Source: Alphaproteobacteria bacterium (lineage in GTDB: Bacteria; Pseudomonadota; Alphaproteobacteria; Rickettsiales; UBA8987). From it: 35,902 bases of DNA. The position numbers and the translations under genes are program-made. The notes under the pieces were generated by a model that made no database searches, was not told the origin of the DNA, and saw only the letters and a program-made list of their open reading frames with translations. The stretch lies in assembly GCA_030429625.1 (NCBI GenBank), contig JAUIFA010000008.1, positions 1 to 35,902 on the forward strand, in the 5' to 3' direction. Positions 25,633-32,459 of this stretch are shown piece after piece; position 1 is the first letter of the stretch, and every line of letters starts with the position of its first letter.

Positions 25633-28600
25633 TTAGCCGGTACGGCTGAAGAAAATATCTTTCCAGTAATCAATAACAGTTTCCTCGCTCCACTCTACCT
25701 CAGGATCTAAAATATTACCCTTGATTTCCATGGTTAAAGGAATGTCTTTTACCAAAGCACGAATCCACATATCCGATTTTAAATCCATTTCCCAAGTTGG
25801 TAAATCAATCCGTCCGGTGATTGTGGCTTTACTGAAAGCCTTATCAGTAACATAAGCGTTACTAAACAAAGCACTGCCATTAATGAATTTTAGCTGCCCG
25901 GAAATATAATCTACCCCGACATAGCCTTTACTAAGACCAATTTTTGTCCAGTATTTTGCCTCTTTGGCCGTATTGAGTGTTCCAATACGTTCCGAAAGAA
26001 GTTTAAAGTTTGCCCCCTTAAACACTGTACCACGTAAAGCAAATTGCATCTTACCTTCAAGAGAGCTTACCCACTCCCTCATATTAAAGCCATTCATGCG
26101 AATTGTCCCAGTAGAACTAAAACGACCCACCATATTTTTACCGTTACCAAAGAATTTATCGGCAAATTTGCGTAAGTCCATATTTTTTGCACTCACCGTT
26201 ACATTAAGGTCAGGACGTGATTCAATATCCATGTAACCTTCAAGCTTCAAAGTGCCATCAAATATATTACCCCTAATACGCTCAAATGATAGCCTGTTAT
26301 CCGCCACCTTAAACTTACCCCATATGTTTTCTACTGTATATCTAGGGCTAATAATCTTATTAATTTTAAAATCCATCATCCCATTAAAGATGCTAAATAA
26401 TGTTAAATTAAAGGTATGATTCGAAAAATATGCAGGATTCTTTGCTGCTTCCGCTTCCTCTACGGTATCTTTAATGTCGAGTATCTTTTTATACACGTCA
26501 ACATCGAGTTCATCAATACGCAGCCGAGTGTCCACAATGGGGGTTAGTTTGGAATTATCTATTTCCATATCAAAATCCACCGCACCATTTCCCAGAATAA
26601 AGTTTAGTCCTGAAAAACTAAATTTTGTATCCACATAATTTAATTGGCCGGTAAGGTCTTTGATTTCCTGATCGTTAAACATCAAACGCTTAATATCAAG
26701 ATCCACATTGAATTTATCGTAGACAACACCAAGACGTCTTATCCAGTCAAAAAACGCATAATTTTTTATGCCTTTACGAATCACCGAGTCATCACGCTCA
26801 AAATGAGTATCAAACAACCGACTTGCATCAAACTCTTTGGCTTTAATGTCCAGATTAACAATCATTTTATTTTCTTTGGACAAAGAAAGGCTTTTATCTT
26901 TTCTTGAAATACTTAAATTTCCGGTAACATCAAAACCATCACCCGAGATAGAATAATTATTTAAGAATATGTCATCACCAGCAATAGAAAATTCTGAACT
27001 AAAATTAAAAATATCCTGTGTACTCTTATTGAGAATATCCTCTCTTAAATTTACCCAACCAAGAAGGTTCTTGCCTAATTTGCCCTTCGTTTTTACAGAC
27101 CCCATAAACAATTTCTCATTGGTATTTTTGTCTGTTTGTAGCGCACCGTTTAGGATAATGTCCATATCACCGGAAACACTCTTAAACTTCATCATCCGGA
27201 TGGTGATTTTATCCCGATTGAATATGCCATCCACTCCGATATTACTGTATATGTCTCCGTCGTATTTCAAGTTATCGACTTTTGCATTAATATCAAAAAC
27301 AGTGTCAGACGGCATTCTGTTTAAAAATTTACTAAACGTAATGGCAGTGGTTTTTTCTTCGTCCTCATAATACTCCTCAATACCTTTATCCCGATCAAGA
27401 TCAACATTCTTTACATCAAGATTAACCTTCGCCTGCGTAATATTAGAAATTTCAGCATCTAAGGATAAGGTCGCGTTCAACTTATCTGAAGTTACTTCCA
27501 AATTATTTGATTTAAGAATATTATCGGTAAGGCTTAAATCACCCTTTATGTTACCATATTCTCCAGACAGAAACGCATATGCCACACGGCTTGAAAGGCT
27601 TTCATCACCGTTATTAAACAGGTTTGATGGCTTATCTTCACCGCTATTATTAACCCGTCCAACAACATCTCCCTGAACATTGAGCCTATCATTGTTATAC
27701 ACAACATCTGCCGCATAGCTCACATCAAAACTACTGCCTTGCAAAGAAAATAATAAGTTTGATGGTTCCTTATCCGTTATTTTCGTCAATAAAAATTCGT
27801 AGGAAATATCTGCCTTACTCTTCTCCGAACCAAGCACACCGCTTATATCAAACGGACCATAATAAGAGCCAGCCGACACATTAGAACTCTGAAGGGAAAC
27901 CGATCTTTCTGTTGGGCTAATTTTATTACCGGTTAAAAGAGTAATTTGAGCATTGGAAAGTATAAGGCTATTAACATCAACATATTGGCTAAAAATATCT
28001 TCTATTTTAAAAACCCTACGTCTTGATTGCTCTATATCAAAATTCCAGTTAGGCTCTTCTTCATTAAAATATTCCAAATATATTTTTGGCCGGATAAATT
28101 CCATACGCACAATGCTGACACTACCAAAGATAAGTTTAAACAAGGAAGGAGTTAACCTTACCTCCTCCACCTCAAGCATGTTGGTGCTAATGCCCGTTCT
28201 TGCGTTTCTAAACTTAATGTCTTTAAATATAAATTGTGGTGGGAAAGGCACGTAATCAATGTCACCATCAATCCTGAGTTCCCTGTCCGTTGCATCACGT
28301 ACAATCTTCTGCAATTCCCCGCGATTGGATTCAATGTTAATCAATGTAATCGTTGCGTAAACCAACGAGGCCATCATCAAACCAACGATGAACAACAAAA
28401 CCTTTCCTATACGAGATTTTGCTTTCTCATATTTTTCCATTCGGATGATTTGTTGTGTTCTTCTGGCGACATTAAGGGTAGAACTTCCAGCTTCTTTGAC
28501 AGATTTATAAAACTTTTTCTTTTTAATACGGGCAGCTCTTTTTCTTTTTTTGTCTTCTTTCTTAGAAATATTACTGACCAAAATACTGTCAAAATCACCA

Positions 28601-29001
28601 TACTCACGGTTATGTGCATCTGGTGCTTTACTCACACCGTACGATATGGCATTATCTTCCTGATCTGAAGCAGATTTTTCTTTATTGTTTTTATCAAAAA
28701 CCGCGGGTTTTATTTCTTTAGGAGCGTCCGTTTTCTCGTAAATATCAACATCAATATTCTCTGCAATGCTATGTGCAGTATGATCTTCTTCCCCGGAAAC
28801 ATTTTCCACAACCGCAGCACCCGCACGCTCAAGCCGGTTTTTTTCTATTTCCTCTTCTTTTTTCTGCTTCTGTTTTTCAAGCTCTGACTTGGTGACAATC
28901 TCCTCATGCTCAATCTCATCAAGCGTTGAGGAAAGTATTTCACTTAGCTCAAGACCAACCTGATCGTCATCCAACATAGATTCTTTATCATCAAGTGACA
29001 T
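25633..29001 (-). CDS. Large AsmA family protein with cytoplasmic N-terminal extension
   Basis: AsmA-like proteins are inner-membrane-anchored, mostly periplasmic, and are now linked to moving phospholipids between membranes. The single membrane helix is at about 198-222. After it comes family-typical text, with RELRIDGDIDYVPFPPQFIFKD near 244-265, a long beta-rich repeat region, and an AsmA C-terminal part (about 930-1100) with GTVFKGANFKLLSERIGTL and a DLPTWEMDLKS stretch. At 1122 residues it is a long member. Unusual is the roughly 195-residue cytoplasmic N-terminus: acidic, with a charged coiled-coil patch (about 36-60) and a strongly basic stretch (about 148-166) just before the helix. 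It diverges from ctrA across 408 nt. Confidence 0.85.
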   Translation of the reverse strand: MSLDDKESMLDDDQVGLELSEILSSTLDEIEHEEIVTKSELEKQKQKKEEEIEKNRLERAGAAVVENVSGEEDHTAHSIAENIDVDIYEKTDAPKEIKPAVFDKNNKEKSASDQEDNAISYGVSKAPDAHNREYGDFDSILVSNISKKEDKKRKRAARIKKKKFYKSVKEAGSSTLNVARRTQQIIRMEKYEKAKSRIGKVLLFIVGLMMASLVYATITLINIESNRGELQKIVRDATDRELRIDGDIDYVPFPPQFIFKDIKFRNARTGISTNMLEVEEVRLTPSLFKLIFGSVSIVRMEFIRPKIYLEYFNEEEPNWNFDIEQSRRRVFKIEDIFSQYVDVNSLILSNAQITLLTGNKISPTERSVSLQSSNVSAGSYYGPFDISGVLGSEKSKADISYEFLLTKITDKEPSNLLFSLQGSSFDVSYAADVVYNNDRLNVQGDVVGRVNNSGEDKPSNLFNNGDESLSSRVAYAFLSGEYGNIKGDLSLTDNILKSNNLEVTSDKLNATLSLDAEISNITQAKVNLDVKNVDLDRDKGIEEYYEDEEKTTAITFSKFLNRMPSDTVFDINAKVDNLKYDGDIYSNIGVDGIFNRDKITIRMMKFKSVSGDMDIILNGALQTDKNTNEKLFMGSVKTKGKLGKNLLGWVNLREDILNKSTQDIFNFSSEFSIAGDDIFLNNYSISGDGFDVTGNLSISRKDKSLSLSKENKMIVNLDIKAKEFDASRLFDTHFERDDSVIRKGIKNYAFFDWIRRLGVVYDKFNVDLDIKRLMFNDQEIKDLTGQLNYVDTKFSFSGLNFILGNGAVDFDMEIDNSKLTPIVDTRLRIDELDVDVYKKILDIKDTVEEAEAAKNPAYFSNHTFNLTLFSIFNGMMDFKINKIISPRYTVENIWGKFKVADNRLSFERIRGNIFDGTLKLEGYMDIESRPDLNVTVSAKNMDLRKFADKFFGNGKNMVGRFSSTGTIRMNGFNMREWVSSLEGKMQFALRGTVFKGANFKLLSERIGTLNTAKEAKYWTKIGLSKGYVGVDYISGQLKFINGSALFSNAYVTDKAFSKATITGRIDLPTWEMDLKSDMWIRALVKDIPLTMEIKGNILDPEVEWSEETVIDYWKDIFFSRTG

Positions 29002-29111
29002 AGTATCTCTTTAAAACCTATTAAAAATAAAATATATTAAACCCAGTCATCATAATGATATTCTATGATTTGTATAGTATTTTATGCCACTGTAATATAT
29101 TTGTAATATAA

Positions 29112-29168
29112 GGTAAAAATATTAACTATTTACCCCCACAAACTTACCATACAGCAACGAAAGGTAAG
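29112..29168. promoter_or_regulatory. Four alternating GGTAA/TTACC half-sites
   Basis: GGTAAA (29112-29117) and TTTACC (29129-29134) form one inverted pair, CTTACC (29143-29148) and GGTAAG (29163-29168) a second, in mirror orientation. They lie between the AsmA-like gene and the ctrA TTAA array. The arrangement looks like an operator for a dimeric regulator, but no family can be named. Confidence 0.3.
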
Positions 29169-29250
29169 TATTGCATTTTGGCCATTTATACGGTATACAC
29201 AACCTTCAAAGCCGTATTTATTTATGTTCATTTATTGCCTTACTAATATA

Positions 29251-29317
29251 TTAACAAATTATTAATTGACATTTCCTAATTATTAATAAATATTAATAAA
29301 GATTAATTAAAGATTAA
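29251..29317 (+). promoter_or_regulatory. Array of TTAA half-sites upstream of ctrA (CtrA boxes)
   Basis: TTAA occurs at 29251, 29262, 29283, 29293, 29303 and 29314, so neighbouring copies are 10-11 nt apart, with one gap of 21. Two pairs match the known CtrA box TTAA-N7-TTAA exactly: 29251-29265 and 29303-29317. A consensus -35, TTGACA (29266-29271), directly follows the first box. In Caulobacter CtrA both activates and represses its own gene through such boxes; autoregulation here is inference. The wider 408-nt gap (29002-29409) is very AT-rich. I see no GANTC methylation site in it. Confidence 0.6.
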
Positions 29318-29409
29318 TATTTACATTTTAATTTAAATATGATAAAATTTTACCAATATTATTGTTTAGTAAGGAACAATAACTGAATTTTTTATTTTTG
29401 GAGTTTTTC

Positions 29410-30123
29410 ATGCGTATACTTCTTGTTGAGGATGATCCGTCTACATCTCGCTCTATAGAGCTTGCACTTGCTGCCGAAGGCATTGTGTGTGATACTGCTG
29501 CTCTTGGTGAGGAAGGCTTGGAGCTAGGACAAATTTATGATTACGATCTTGTCATACTAGACATGATGTTACCAGACATTGATGGCTTTGAGGTACTGAG
29601 ACGCTTCCGGGCAAATTCAATTAAAACTCCTGTGCTGATTCTTTCTGGGCTTACCGGCTCAGACAGTAAAATCAAAGGTCTTGGTATTGGTGCGGACGAT
29701 TATGTGACTAAGCCATTTAATCGTGGTGAATTAGTAGCACGTATACAAGCGATTGTTCGTCGCTCAAAAGGTCATTCGGAGTCTACGGTTCGTTGTGGAA
29801 AATTAAGCATTAACCTTGATGAACGTACTGTTGAAGTAGATGGTAAACAGTTACACTTAACAGGCAAAGAATATAGTATTCTTGAGCTTTTAATGCTCCG
29901 CAAAGGCACTCCTCTTAAAAAGGAAATGTTCTTAAACCATCTATACGGTGGAATTGATGAGCCTGAGTTAAAAATTATTGACGTGTTTATCTGCAAACTT
30001 CGCAAGAAAATACAGGTAGCTTCTGGTGGCGACAACTACATTGAAACATTGTGGGGGCGTGGCTACATTCTTCGTGATCCTAGCGAAGTGGAAATGTCTG
30101 AAAAAGAAACAGTGGACGCGTAG
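29410..30123 (+). CDS. ctrA: Cell cycle response regulator CtrA
   Basis: CtrA is the master transcription factor of the alphaproteobacterial cell cycle, phosphorylated through CckA-ChpT. The receiver domain starts [20 protein letters not shown] and has the phospho-acceptor D51 in [10 protein letters not shown] and K101 in YVTKPF. The OmpR-type DNA-binding domain has [47 protein letters not shown] and [12 protein letters not shown], closely matching CtrA as I know it. The ATG at 29410 has GGAG 6 nt upstream; a TTG four codons earlier is rejected. The 237 residues are slightly longer than Caulobacter CtrA and end in TVDA, not the Ala-Ala degron. A TTAA array lies upstream. The next gene is a SixA-like phosphatase. 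Confidence 0.95.
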
Positions 30124-30169: not shown

Positions 30170-30694
30170 ATGAAGCGATTATTTGTTCTTAGGCACTCCA
30201 AAGCCGGGCAGACAAATAAAAAAATTCTTGCTGACCATGAACGCCCTTTGACACAAAAAGGCGTTGAGGTTGCCCATCTGACAGGGCAATATATGCACAA
30301 TTGCAACTATCATCCTGATCATATTGTCACCTCAAACGCAACACGAGCAATTGAAACTGGTGACATTGTTTTGCAATATCTTCCGGACAATATAGAGCGA
30401 GAAGTCAGTACAAAGCTTTATTTGGCCGATTCTGACGATATTTTTAAATTCATAAACGGTTTTGTTGAAGATTCTGTGAGTAACCTTCTTATCATTGGTC
30501 ACAACCCTGGCCTACACTATTTTGCTATGGACTTAGCCGGATCGGGCGATAAAAAGAAATTCCGTGAAATGCGTACAAACTTTCCACCACGCTCTCTGGC
30601 CGTATATAACATTGATGTCACCAGCTGGGCAGACGTAACTTCGCAATCGGGCGAGTTAATTGATTTCCATATTACCACCGCTAAATCCGTATAA
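30170..30694 (+). CDS. SixA-like phosphohistidine phosphatase (histidine phosphatase family)
   Basis: The 174-residue protein is a compact member of the histidine phosphatase superfamily. R8 and H9 in VLRHSKAG, R59 in SNATRAIETG and H111 in IIGHNPG make up the catalytic set; the short form without an inserted cap resembles SixA. In E. coli SixA removes phosphate from histidine of a phosphorelay or PTS protein. It lies 46 nt after ctrA on the same strand, so a role in dampening a phosphorelay is tempting but only inferred. GGGGG about 5 nt before the ATG is a strong ribosome binding site. It converges on hdaA. Confidence 0.85.
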   Translation: MKRLFVLRHSKAGQTNKKILADHERPLTQKGVEVAHLTGQYMHNCNYHPDHIVTSNATRAIETGDIVLQYLPDNIEREVSTKLYLADSDDIFKFINGFVEDSVSNLLIIGHNPGLHYFAMDLAGSGDKKKFREMRTNFPPRSLAVYNIDVTSWADVTSQSGELIDFHITTAKSV

Positions 30695-30715
30695 AACCTA
30701 CAGAAATAAACCTAC

Positions 30716-31354
30716 CTACAATATGTCCCGAATCAATGGGATGGTAATATTACGTTTTTCTTCTAGAGATTTGTTATCTATTTTTTCTACCAACATTTGC
30801 ACTGCAGAAAACGAACGCTCAACTCTGGCAATGATATAATCAATGGCTTCAATACTGATGGATAATTGGCGATCTGAAAAATTTTTTAGAAGAAACATCC
30901 GCAATAATTCATCGTCTGGCGCACCAATGGCAATGGATGTCATTGCCGAAAGTCTAGATCTTAAATCTGCTAATTTAATTGTATTCTGTGCTGGAGAGTT
31001 TTTATCTGTTACCAATAAAAATCCTCCTGATTGTTGTATTACATTGTAAATATGGAAAAGAGCATTTTCGTCTTTTAACTCTGAAATATTTTCAATAATA
31101 TAAGCTTTAGATCCATCCACACCCTCAACAACCAACTCTTTGGAATTTAGAAACTGTGCTTGGCTCATGTTCTGCCATATGTTGGCCAGATGGGTTTTTC
31201 CACATTTATGTTCTCCGTATAAAAATAGGAAATGTGTCTGCCATTGTGGCCATGCACTAATGTAATCAAACGCTTCCTGATTAGACGAAGACACAAAGAA
31301 ATTATCTCTGGCATAATCTGGATCATGCGTAAAATCTAAGGCAATCTGCCCCAT
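30716..31354 (-). CDS. hdaA: DnaA regulatory inactivator HdaA
   Basis: HdaA binds the sliding clamp and stimulates ATP hydrolysis by DnaA, preventing over-initiation. I start it at the ATG at 31354, 1 nt after the upstream gene's stop, giving 212 residues. The frame continues upstream inside the permease gene but the family starts here. The N-terminal QIALDF (3-8) is a clamp-binding motif. The AAA+ core has a Walker A-like GEHKCGKTHLA (47-57), a degenerate Walker B (AYIIENISEL), and a sensor-2-like C-terminal part. It is the last gene of a run with a DUF2066-like protein and a PerM-type permease, a grouping I know from other alphaproteobacteria. It converges on ctrA-sixA. Confidence 0.9.
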   Translation of the reverse strand: MGQIALDFTHDPDYARDNFFVSSSNQEAFDYISAWPQWQTHFLFLYGEHKCGKTHLANIWQNMSQAQFLNSKELVVEGVDGSKAYIIENISELKDENALFHIYNVIQQSGGFLLVTDKNSPAQNTIKLADLRSRLSAMTSIAIGAPDDELLRMFLLKNFSDRQLSISIEAIDYIIARVERSFSAVQMLVEKIDNKSLEEKRNITIPLIRDIL

Positions 31355-31355
31355 A

Positions 31356-32459
31356 TCAACCCTTTTTGTTTGATTTTTTCGCGGCAGTTTTTTTGGTCTT
31401 TTTGCTACCATACAAACCACCATTAATATACAATCCTACGGCAAAGCGAGAGAGAACCCCCACCACAGCAGTTACCGGAATAGCAATAAGTACTCCAACG
31501 AACCCAAAGAGAGAGCCACCTGCGAGCAAGCCAAAAATAATCCAGACAGGATGTAAGCCAACCTTATCCCCAACCAATTTTGGAGTAACAAAATTACCCT
31601 CAATAAATTGGCCAACAACATACACCGCTATGACCGCACCTATGGATTGGATGTCTCCACCATATTGGAAAAGTGCTACGATAATGCCCGCTGTCATCCC
31701 AATAAACATGCCCACATAAGGGAGAAAAGCCAAAATCCCTGTAGCAATACCAATAAACATACCAAATTCAAGCCCAACGAAAGAAAGGCCAGCACCATAA
31801 AATACTGCCAACATCAAACACACATTGCTTTGTCCGCGAATAAAGCCAGAAAGGGTCTGATCAATAATGGAAAGTTGTTCACGAATTACTTTGGCATTAT
31901 CCCGAGGAAACCAGCTGTCTATCTTTGCGGTTATTCGATCCCAATCCCTAAGCAGAAAAAAAGATACGATAGGACTGATGAAAATCAGGGAAATCATATT
32001 AAGAAATGCTCCACCAGACTGTACTATGTTACCAAGTATGTCCCCGGCTACTTTTAGAATATTACCCGAATAACTGCTGATAATTTCCTTGGCCTTTTGC
32101 TCAGAATCAACCGGAAGAATCTCCATTGCTCTCTGATATAAATAACCATATTTTTCTTCTATCCACGCAACATAATCGGGGAACTTCGCTACGAAGGCTG
32201 CAAATTGATCAAACAATGCCGGCAAAACAAAAGCCGCCAGAATAATCACCACACCAAAGAATCCTAATATGATTGTTGCCGCACTGGCAGAACGTGATAA
32301 TCCAACTGTTTCAAGTTTATCTGCAGCAGGATCAAGAAAATATGCCACCAATAACGCCACAATAAATGGCAACAATATATTACTCACCGCGCATAAGAAA
32401 AAAATGACAGCAACACATAGCCCTATCCAAAAAATCGCCTTTTCTTTTATTCCAATCAT
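31356..32459 (-). CDS. AI-2E/PerM family permease
   Basis: The 367-residue polytopic protein has the AI-2E transporter family layout: two or three N-terminal helices (about 10-85), a more polar periplasmic part (about 90-150), and a block of helices with the family text FLPYVGMFIGMTAGIIVALFQYGG and VGQFIEGNFVTPKLVGDKVGLHP (about 250-320), followed by GLLAGGSLFGFVGVLIAIPVTAV. Substrates of the family are uncertain; members export signalling molecules or act as ion antiporters. The C-terminus is a lysine-rich tail (KKTKKTAAKKSNKKG). Its stop is 1 nt before hdaA and its start 1 nt after the DUF2066-like gene, so all three are tightly coupled. Confidence 0.9.
   Translation of the reverse strand: MIGIKEKAIFWIGLCVAVIFFLCAVSNILLPFIVALLVAYFLDPAADKLETVGLSRSASAATIILGFFGVVIILAAFVLPALFDQFAAFVAKFPDYVAWIEEKYGYLYQRAMEILPVDSEQKAKEIISSYSGNILKVAGDILGNIVQSGGAFLNMISLIFISPIVSFFLLRDWDRITAKIDSWFPRDNAKVIREQLSIIDQTLSGFIRGQSNVCLMLAVFYGAGLSFVGLEFGMFIGIATGILAFLPYVGMFIGMTAGIIVALFQYGGDIQSIGAVIAVYVVGQFIEGNFVTPKLVGDKVGLHPVWIIFGLLAGGSLFGFVGVLIAIPVTAVVGVLSRFAVGLYINGGLYGSKKTKKTAAKKSNKKG

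Follow-up and report, generated by a model that had tools for sequence, protein, structure and literature searches.

CtrA is the central cell-cycle regulator of the Alphaproteobacteria, and its self-activation is best known from Caulobacter, which has GcrA and CcrM. Regulators of the OmpR/PhoB family bind rows of half-sites about 11 bp apart, as in the tandem pho boxes of PhoB, although these differ from the sites described below in both regulator and motif. P2 of Caulobacter ctrA is described as TTAA-N6-TTAA plus one half-site and P1 as having a single half-site (PMC3751295), and CtrA shuts P1 via the half-site at -10 and opens the strong P2 via the box at -35 (PMC11264516, PMC3751295). The same P1 is activated by GcrA and needs hemimethylated GANTC (PMC3751295). 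Autoregulation of ctrA has been described in Caulobacter (PMC3751295) and in Hyphomonas neptunium (PMC7200025), with the CtrA consensus published as TTAA-N7-TTAAC (PMC7200025), and a comparative study predicts control of the ctrA promoter by CtrA for most members of an alphaproteobacterial cluster, where this self-control is isolated from GcrA, CcrM and DnaA (PMC2877005).

Rows of CtrA sites are also found at target genes. Caulobacter pilA is repressed from upstream CtrA sites (PMC11264516); it is a target gene and not ctrA, and its four CtrA sites in series are uneven and degenerate in their native form. Three CtrA sites set 6 bp apart at pilA gave the lowest activity, less than half that of the native promoter, whereas three site copies at native or 31-bp spacing gave above-native activity (PMC11264516). 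On our reading of text and legend, the 6-bp construct, called P1(3X), comes close to the array reported here with six half-sites at about 11, 10, 11, 10 and 11. Six CtrA half-sites, with one pair 6 bp and one pair 7 bp apart, are likewise described for the ctp promoter of Agrobacterium tumefaciens (PMC11264516), a pilin promoter unlike that of ctrA and compared here by description only.

The promoter analysed here resembles that of Caulobacter ctrA in its half-sites before ctrA, in one box at a candidate -35 and in a further half-site over a candidate upstream promoter. Unlike that of Caulobacter it has six phased half-sites and no GANTC; moreover, GcrA was not found and the cut-off for the RAMA domain was not reached. 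The initial annotation had called it denser than its Caulobacter counterpart, which is right for the ctrA promoter itself, but multi-site CtrA promoters (pilA, Agrobacterium ctp) are known, as cited above.

The ctrA locus and its half-sites

The window, by which we mean the whole stretch of 35,902 nucleotides that was analysed, belongs to a genome of 1.84 Mb in 12 contigs, which its ctrA and its relatives place in the Alphaproteobacteria. The product of the gene behind the array matches the NCBIfam equivalog NF045991 at 391.9 bits (cut-off 350), confirming that the gene is ctrA as first annotated. It combines a receiver domain (PF00072) with an OmpR/PhoB-type DNA-binding domain (PF00486, residues 145-221). 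All 83 aligned orthologues have the phospho-acceptor D51, and the DNA-binding domain has a median identity of 0.78-0.79, so that the locus encodes a CtrA with a conserved phospho-acceptor and DNA-binding domain, as a CtrA-controlled promoter would need. ChpT, a member of the CckA-ChpT-CtrA relay, is also encoded in this genome (G000:C10:230413-230772; 44.9 bits against a cut-off of 22.9) and is present in 40 of the 55 genomes sampled from the order. A sequence search for solved structures gave no CtrA–DNA structure; its matches at E <=1e-25 were other response regulators and, for CtrA itself, only the receiver part (4qpj).

The intergenic region 29002-29409 (GC 21.6%) is common to ctrA and the divergent AsmA-family gene, and its subregion 29241-29340 around the array has 9% GC. 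Behind ctrA lies a gene for a SixA-like phosphatase, which reaches 57.4 bits with TIGR00249, under the cut-off of 74.5; as judged by eye, starts of similar phosphatases adjoin ctrA in some relatives. An HdaA-like DnaA regulator also lies near ctrA, in the stretch 30170-31423, under the NCBIfam cut-offs and over that of Pfam for the Hda lid.

The initial annotation had reported six TTAA at spacings of 11, 21, 10, 10 and 11 nt on one face of the helix, two exact CtrA boxes and a TTGACA directly after the first box, and we could confirm all of these. Counted from the first half-site the offsets are 0, 11, 32, 42, 52 and 63, each later one falling within 0.5 base of 1, 3, 4, 5 or 6 turns of 10.5 bp. 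Half-sites with 6 or 7 nt between them, the spacing taken to mark a CtrA-controlled promoter, are thus present. In total 29002-29409 holds 13 TTAA. Four start nearer to the divergent gene (29011, 29021, 29037 and 29122), and three that the first description had missed (29307, 29328 and 29333) lie near the array and out of phase with it.

A half-site motif was derived from the TTAA pairs at 10 nt (50 pairs) and 11 nt (61 pairs) in ctrA promoters other than that of the window. In these pairs TTAA is preceded by A or G in 72-88% and followed by C or T in 64-78%, giving RTTAAY, and the spacer between half-sites in the other genomes is variable and AT-leaning, with no fixed A-tracts. Of the 13 TTAA in the intergenic region, RTTAAY retains the six phased ones and the isolated one at 29122 and rejects the other six, including 29307, 29328 and 29333, so that near the array the sites failing the motif are the out-of-phase ones. 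The initial annotation, made without this motif, could not have been aware of such an agreement. As RTTAAY is palindromic, the orientation of the half-sites cannot be read in the array.

In number the two N7 boxes are unremarkable, since TTAA-N7-TTAA occurs three times in the window and 2.4 would be expected by chance; two of the three occurrences are in the ctrA promoter. A tandem repeat of the 10-mer ATTAATAAAG underlies the 3' half of the array and leaves the two distal half-sites outside. As part of the array is this repeat, the sites within it need not be independent in origin, and repeat expansion could have created part of the array spacing.

Table 1. Coordinates of the array, its candidate control elements and the genes discussed in the text. 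Plain numbers are positions in the window; a dot marks features given without a strand.
Feature	Position	Strand	Details
Six helically phased RTTAAY half-sites	29251..29317	.	starts 29251, 29262, 29283, 29293, 29303, 29314
Isolated RTTAAY half-site outside the array	29122..29125	.	half-site scan
Distal CtrA box, N7 form	29251..29265	.	TTAA-N7-TTAA; also among the refined-motif matches of this genome
Two overlapping N6-type boxes	29283..29306	.	TTAA-N6-TTAA-N6-TTAA
Proximal N7 box	29303..29317	.	second half-site (29314) adjoins or coincides with candidate -35
Imperfect tandem repeat of 10-mer ATTAATAAAG, 3.7 copies	29282..29319	+	Tandem Repeats Finder
Candidate upstream promoter, P1-like	29266..29294	+	TTGACA, 17 nt, AATATT; consensus scan, 10/12
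Candidate downstream promoter, P2-like	29314..29348	+	consensus scan, 10 and 9 of 12
ctrA	29410..30123	+	response regulator CtrA, 237 aa, ATG at 29410
AsmA-family gene, divergent from ctrA	25633..29001	-	PF05170
SixA-like histidine phosphatase gene, directly after ctrA	30170..30694	+	PF00300 over cut-off
VirB2 pilin, VirB3 and second VirB2 pilin genes	L252:3481-4086, L262:1572-1877, L267:1117-1464		contigs 5 and 6 of the same genome
Asp/Glu racemase-domain genes	L115:2472-3785, L265:188-1456, L270:1545-2999		same genome

Phasing against chance and in related promoters

In order to compare the phasing with chance we used 5000 dinucleotide shuffles of 29002-29409 and counted chains with steps of 10, 11 or 20-22 nt. 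The number of TTAA is ordinary (13 seen, 11.1 in the shuffles). A chain of six, in contrast, appeared in one shuffle of 5000 (p = 0.0002) and five pairs at 10 or 11 nt in two (p = 0.0004), with p = 0.03 for the 11-nt pairs alone. Periodicity at 10.5 nt over all 13 TTAA (p = 0.04) is weaker than the chain result, and the most conservative figure for the chain, from nine TTAA placed uniformly in 29241-29340, is p = 0.0056. When the motif was narrowed to RTTAAY, a chain of six occurred in none of 10,000 dinucleotide shuffles, where the longest chain was three, and was equally absent from 10,000 second-order Markov sequences. AT-rich composition does not account for the phasing, and the shuffle test that the initial annotation had named as a possible refutation has come out in its favour.

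We then compiled ctrA promoters from relatives, defined as the 250 nt before the ctrA start whatever gene stands upstream. From the 55 genomes of the same order that were searched, 52 gave a match at E <=0.001, and the 43 with a CtrA-grade match (E <=1e-60), the genome of the window included, were used and 12 left out. Two loci (L119 and L130) start at a non-start codon, which offsets their upstream windows by a few nt. In a second search 97 of 142 genomes matched at 1e-60, and as two of them (G000 and G028) were already in the first set 95, from other orders, remained. Of their loci 88 were read (G056, with an internal stop, was left out, as were G071, G072, G078, G123, G143 and G148 for being distant, partial or over a size limit) and one (L132) was dropped for its short upstream sequence, giving 87 promoters. 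With a third set of 13 named ctrA promoters, mostly from sphingomonads, the collection comprises 143 promoters, and all counts from it treat the sequences as independent although they are related by descent.

In the 42 same-order promoters other than that of the window, TTAA is the only AT-only tetramer that is clearly enriched over dinucleotide expectation (282 seen, 199 expected, z 7.3); ranked by ratio, ATTA follows with z 2.6. The 21 promoters from loci with a GC of at least 0.43 show a larger ratio (134 against 77 expected) than all 42. Pairs of TTAA at 11 nt number 28 where 7.1 are expected (z 8.0) and those at 10 nt 17 where 7.2 are expected (z 3.7). A distance of 21-22 nt, the gap in the window array, would support a skipped half-site; its excess in these 42 promoters is not significant. 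Runs of at least three half-sites at 10 or 11 nt are present in 8 of the 43 same-order promoters (0.65 expected). A run of four is found in two of the 43, namely in the window and in G016 (spacings 11, 10 and 10), and these are also the two among all 143. The remaining 111 kb of the same loci, used as control DNA, shows no excess (six pairs at 10 nt and five at 11 nt, with a mean of 6.8 per distance). Among sequences with at least four TTAA, 26 of 38 ctrA promoters and 5 of 51 control tiles contain a run of two, while a run of three is seen in 7 of these 38 promoters and in none of the 51 tiles.

Outside the order, a pair at 10 or 11 nt is present in 47 of the 87 ctrA promoters (12.9 expected) and a run of three in 5 (0.54 expected), while no run of four was found there. 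The mostly sphingomonad set has a pair in 3 of 13 (1.2 expected) and no longer run. Half-sites and their spacing are thus enriched in orthologous promoters beyond what composition gives. TTAA pairs are also in excess at some further distances. In the order this is so at 28 nt (16 pairs against 6.6), in the other orders at 20 and 23 nt, and in the mostly sphingomonad promoters at 29 nt (10 seen, z 10.9), the last not being independent as the members of that set are close relatives.

The enrichment of the same word with the same 10/11 spacing in orthologous promoters makes it very probable that the phased sites are half-sites for CtrA. The phasing also beats the shuffles, and together these two lines make an autoregulatory operator of ctrA at 29251-29317, bound by CtrA, by far the most likely reading of the array.

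Candidate promoters and the direction of control

A consensus scan of both strands of the region gave 10 promoter matches against 4.9 (sd 2.5) in shuffles. The TTGACA at 29266-29271 would be the -35 element of the upstream candidate, the -10 region of which is covered by the half-sites at 29283 and 29293. The downstream candidate exists in two versions, one with TTTACA at 29320 and a TAAAAT ending at 29348 that is preceded by TG, the other with TTAATA at 29314 and TATGAT ending at 29343. A fixed distance between box and -10 was also looked for by eye over the 143 promoters and given up as nothing clear emerged: of the 53 anchors in the order at most 4 share a distance (41 nt, followed by 3 at 20 nt), and elsewhere no distance reaches 3 of 62. 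Without a clearly preferred place for the -10 element downstream of the boxes, the assignment of either promoter is weak.

From these elements a model can be drawn in which up to three CtrA dimers would sit side by side on the six half-sites, on one face of the DNA. At low CtrA~P the upstream promoter at TTGACA 29266 would give a basal transcript. Rising CtrA~P would fill the array cooperatively and thus act as a threshold switch; the filled half-sites at 29283 and 29293 would cover the -10 region and shut the upstream promoter, and CtrA~P on the box 29303-29317 at -35 would drive the downstream promoter with its -10 ending at 29343 or 29348. The P1-off, P2-on logic of Caulobacter ctrA would then be repeated without detectable GcrA and CcrM. 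What we infer here is that CtrA~P binds and does so cooperatively, that both promoters exist and in which direction control runs, and the filaments that the initial annotation had suggested are inferred as well. By analogy to Caulobacter this particular repress-then-activate arrangement of two promoters is the one that we favour, although we put it slightly short of an even chance.

The same operator might instead act mainly as a brake, with negative feedback keeping CtrA constant, and a filled array would then hold CtrA near -35 without productive contact to RNA polymerase. This would overlap with the model above and is rather unlikely as the main role, although several observations point to it. 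The candidate promoter at 29266 lies under the array, and at pilA the sites 6 bp apart brought activity below half the native level and the upstream sites repress (PMC11264516). As contiguous CtrA sites at this spacing lowered pilA transcription, activation by the array is uncertain, and the 'strong' autoregulation of the initial annotation is not borne out by the nearest construct described, the tandem CtrA sites of pilA, which lower expression. Against a mere brake speaks that CtrA activates the Caulobacter P2 from the box at -35, where the proximal box of our array also stands relative to its candidate promoter, and that the three pilA sites exceeded native activity at wider spacing (PMC11264516, PMC3751295).

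Beyond the direction of control, the array could be an artefact of chance and mutation in AT-rich intergenic DNA, left by a 10-mer repeat that slipped and contains TTAA by coincidence. The low GC of 20-22%, the ordinary number of TTAA and the 3.7 repeat copies would fit such an origin, but the shuffles fail to give the chain, the repeat does not reach the two distal half-sites, and relatives with higher GC at the locus and unrelated spacer sequences, such as G016, keep the same spacing while control DNA does not, which makes this explanation very improbable. Phased AT-rich DNA may also have another role: it could bend intrinsically, act as an UP element or be bound by a nucleoid-type protein that reads TA steps, such as one of the MucR family. 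The 9% GC of 29241-29340 and short A runs in the repeat with the same 10-nt period agree with this, whereas the other genomes keep RTTAAY with a variable, AT-leaning spacer instead of fixed A-tracts and the half-site fits the CtrA consensus given in PMC7200025, so that we see very little room for it either. That the array mainly controls the divergent AsmA-family gene is the least credible proposal, as it lies within the shared intergenic region but 250 nt from the start of that gene and 93 nt from that of ctrA, and the promoters of relatives, taken from the ctrA start whatever stands upstream, share the signal.

Methylation partners and further CtrA-type sites

We return to the reading as an autoregulatory CtrA operator and to its setting in the genome. 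GcrA was found in none of the 55 genomes of the order sample, that of the window included, in a search in which the Caulobacter control was positive and the Sulfolobus control unexpectedly positive too. The RAMA domain, a marker of the CcrM type, was over the cut-off in none of the 55 and absent from the genome of the window, again with a positive Caulobacter control; one weak match below the cut-off came from G026. No GANTC is present in 29002-29409, the nearest ones at 28979 and 29637 both lying within genes, and thus the initial statement that control by CcrM methylation is not evident here is upheld. A Caulobacter-type P1 under GcrA and CcrM would combine GANTC in the promoter, GcrA and a RAMA-domain CcrM, none of which we could detect. 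The two N6_N4 methylases of this genome are fusions with a ParB_N domain (L161:883-2235 and L162:1453-2640), which makes a CcrM of unusual build unlikely. One of the two fusions adjoins a gene for the large subunit of a phage terminase, and on account of this neighbour at least one of them probably belongs to a prophage. In the window GANTC is found somewhat less often than in shuffles (86 against 111, sd 8.7), though no RAMA-domain protein was found in the genome.

A search of the genome for other phased arrays, as the initial annotation had proposed, showed that the triple pattern is not enriched (6 matches at 4 places against 9 in the control). One of these places away from ctrA (C6:68471-68506) holds a run of four TTAA at 11, 10 and 11, and a run of four is therefore not unique to ctrA within this genome. 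The plain count of TTAA-N6/7-TTAA was discarded as genome-wide support for this genome (171 against 236 in the reversed control), whereas it lies above the control in two relatives of the same order (78 against 45 and 94 against 53). With the refined pair motif the genome gives 71 matches against 49 for the reversed control, four of the 71 being in the ctrA promoter. We inspected 45 distinct sites from the 50 listed of these 71, excluding the four in the ctrA promoter and one at window position 1439. By raw count from this list, 38 of the 45 lie outside open frames of at least 80 aa, and 31 of those 38 are within 100 nt of a mechanical start. Among the genes behind the inspected sites are those for two components of a type IV secretion system, VirB2 and VirB3, along with genes for citrate synthase, a receiver protein, a prepilin-like protein and three racemase-like proteins.

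Refined CtrA-type pairs stand before the genes for a VirB2 pilin (95 nt), VirB3 (57 nt) and a second VirB2 pilin (76 nt), and their presence suggests that CtrA may control a type IV secretion system in this organism. A CtrA-type pair also lies 16-56 nt upstream of each of three genes for distantly related Asp/Glu racemase-domain proteins, and before the one at L115:2472-3785 four TTAA follow in a row at 11, 10 and 11. Another dense cluster, with three CtrA-type pairs within 58 nt (L116:1944-2001; contig 6, 179943-180000), is flanked by an exonuclease III-like gene, named by eye, and a gene for an unknown protein of 131 aa.

In the literature searched, mostly outside subscription papers, we found no report of a phased array of six half-sites at ctrA. 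As far as this search shows, what is new is the length and phase of the array, in an order of which 55 sampled genomes show neither GcrA nor an over-cut-off RAMA domain. It is conceivable, if improbable, that this order lost GcrA and CcrM or never had them and that the array with its cooperative row of CtrA~P times ctrA in place of the methylation clock. If this were true, the number and phase of the sites would set a sharp, possibly bistable, threshold for CtrA. The locus is a natural case in which to study if CtrA can be timed by its self-binding alone and if in-phase sites in a row have an activating or a damping effect, and RTTAAY at 10/11 nt offers a usable predictor of CtrA targets in a little-studied group.
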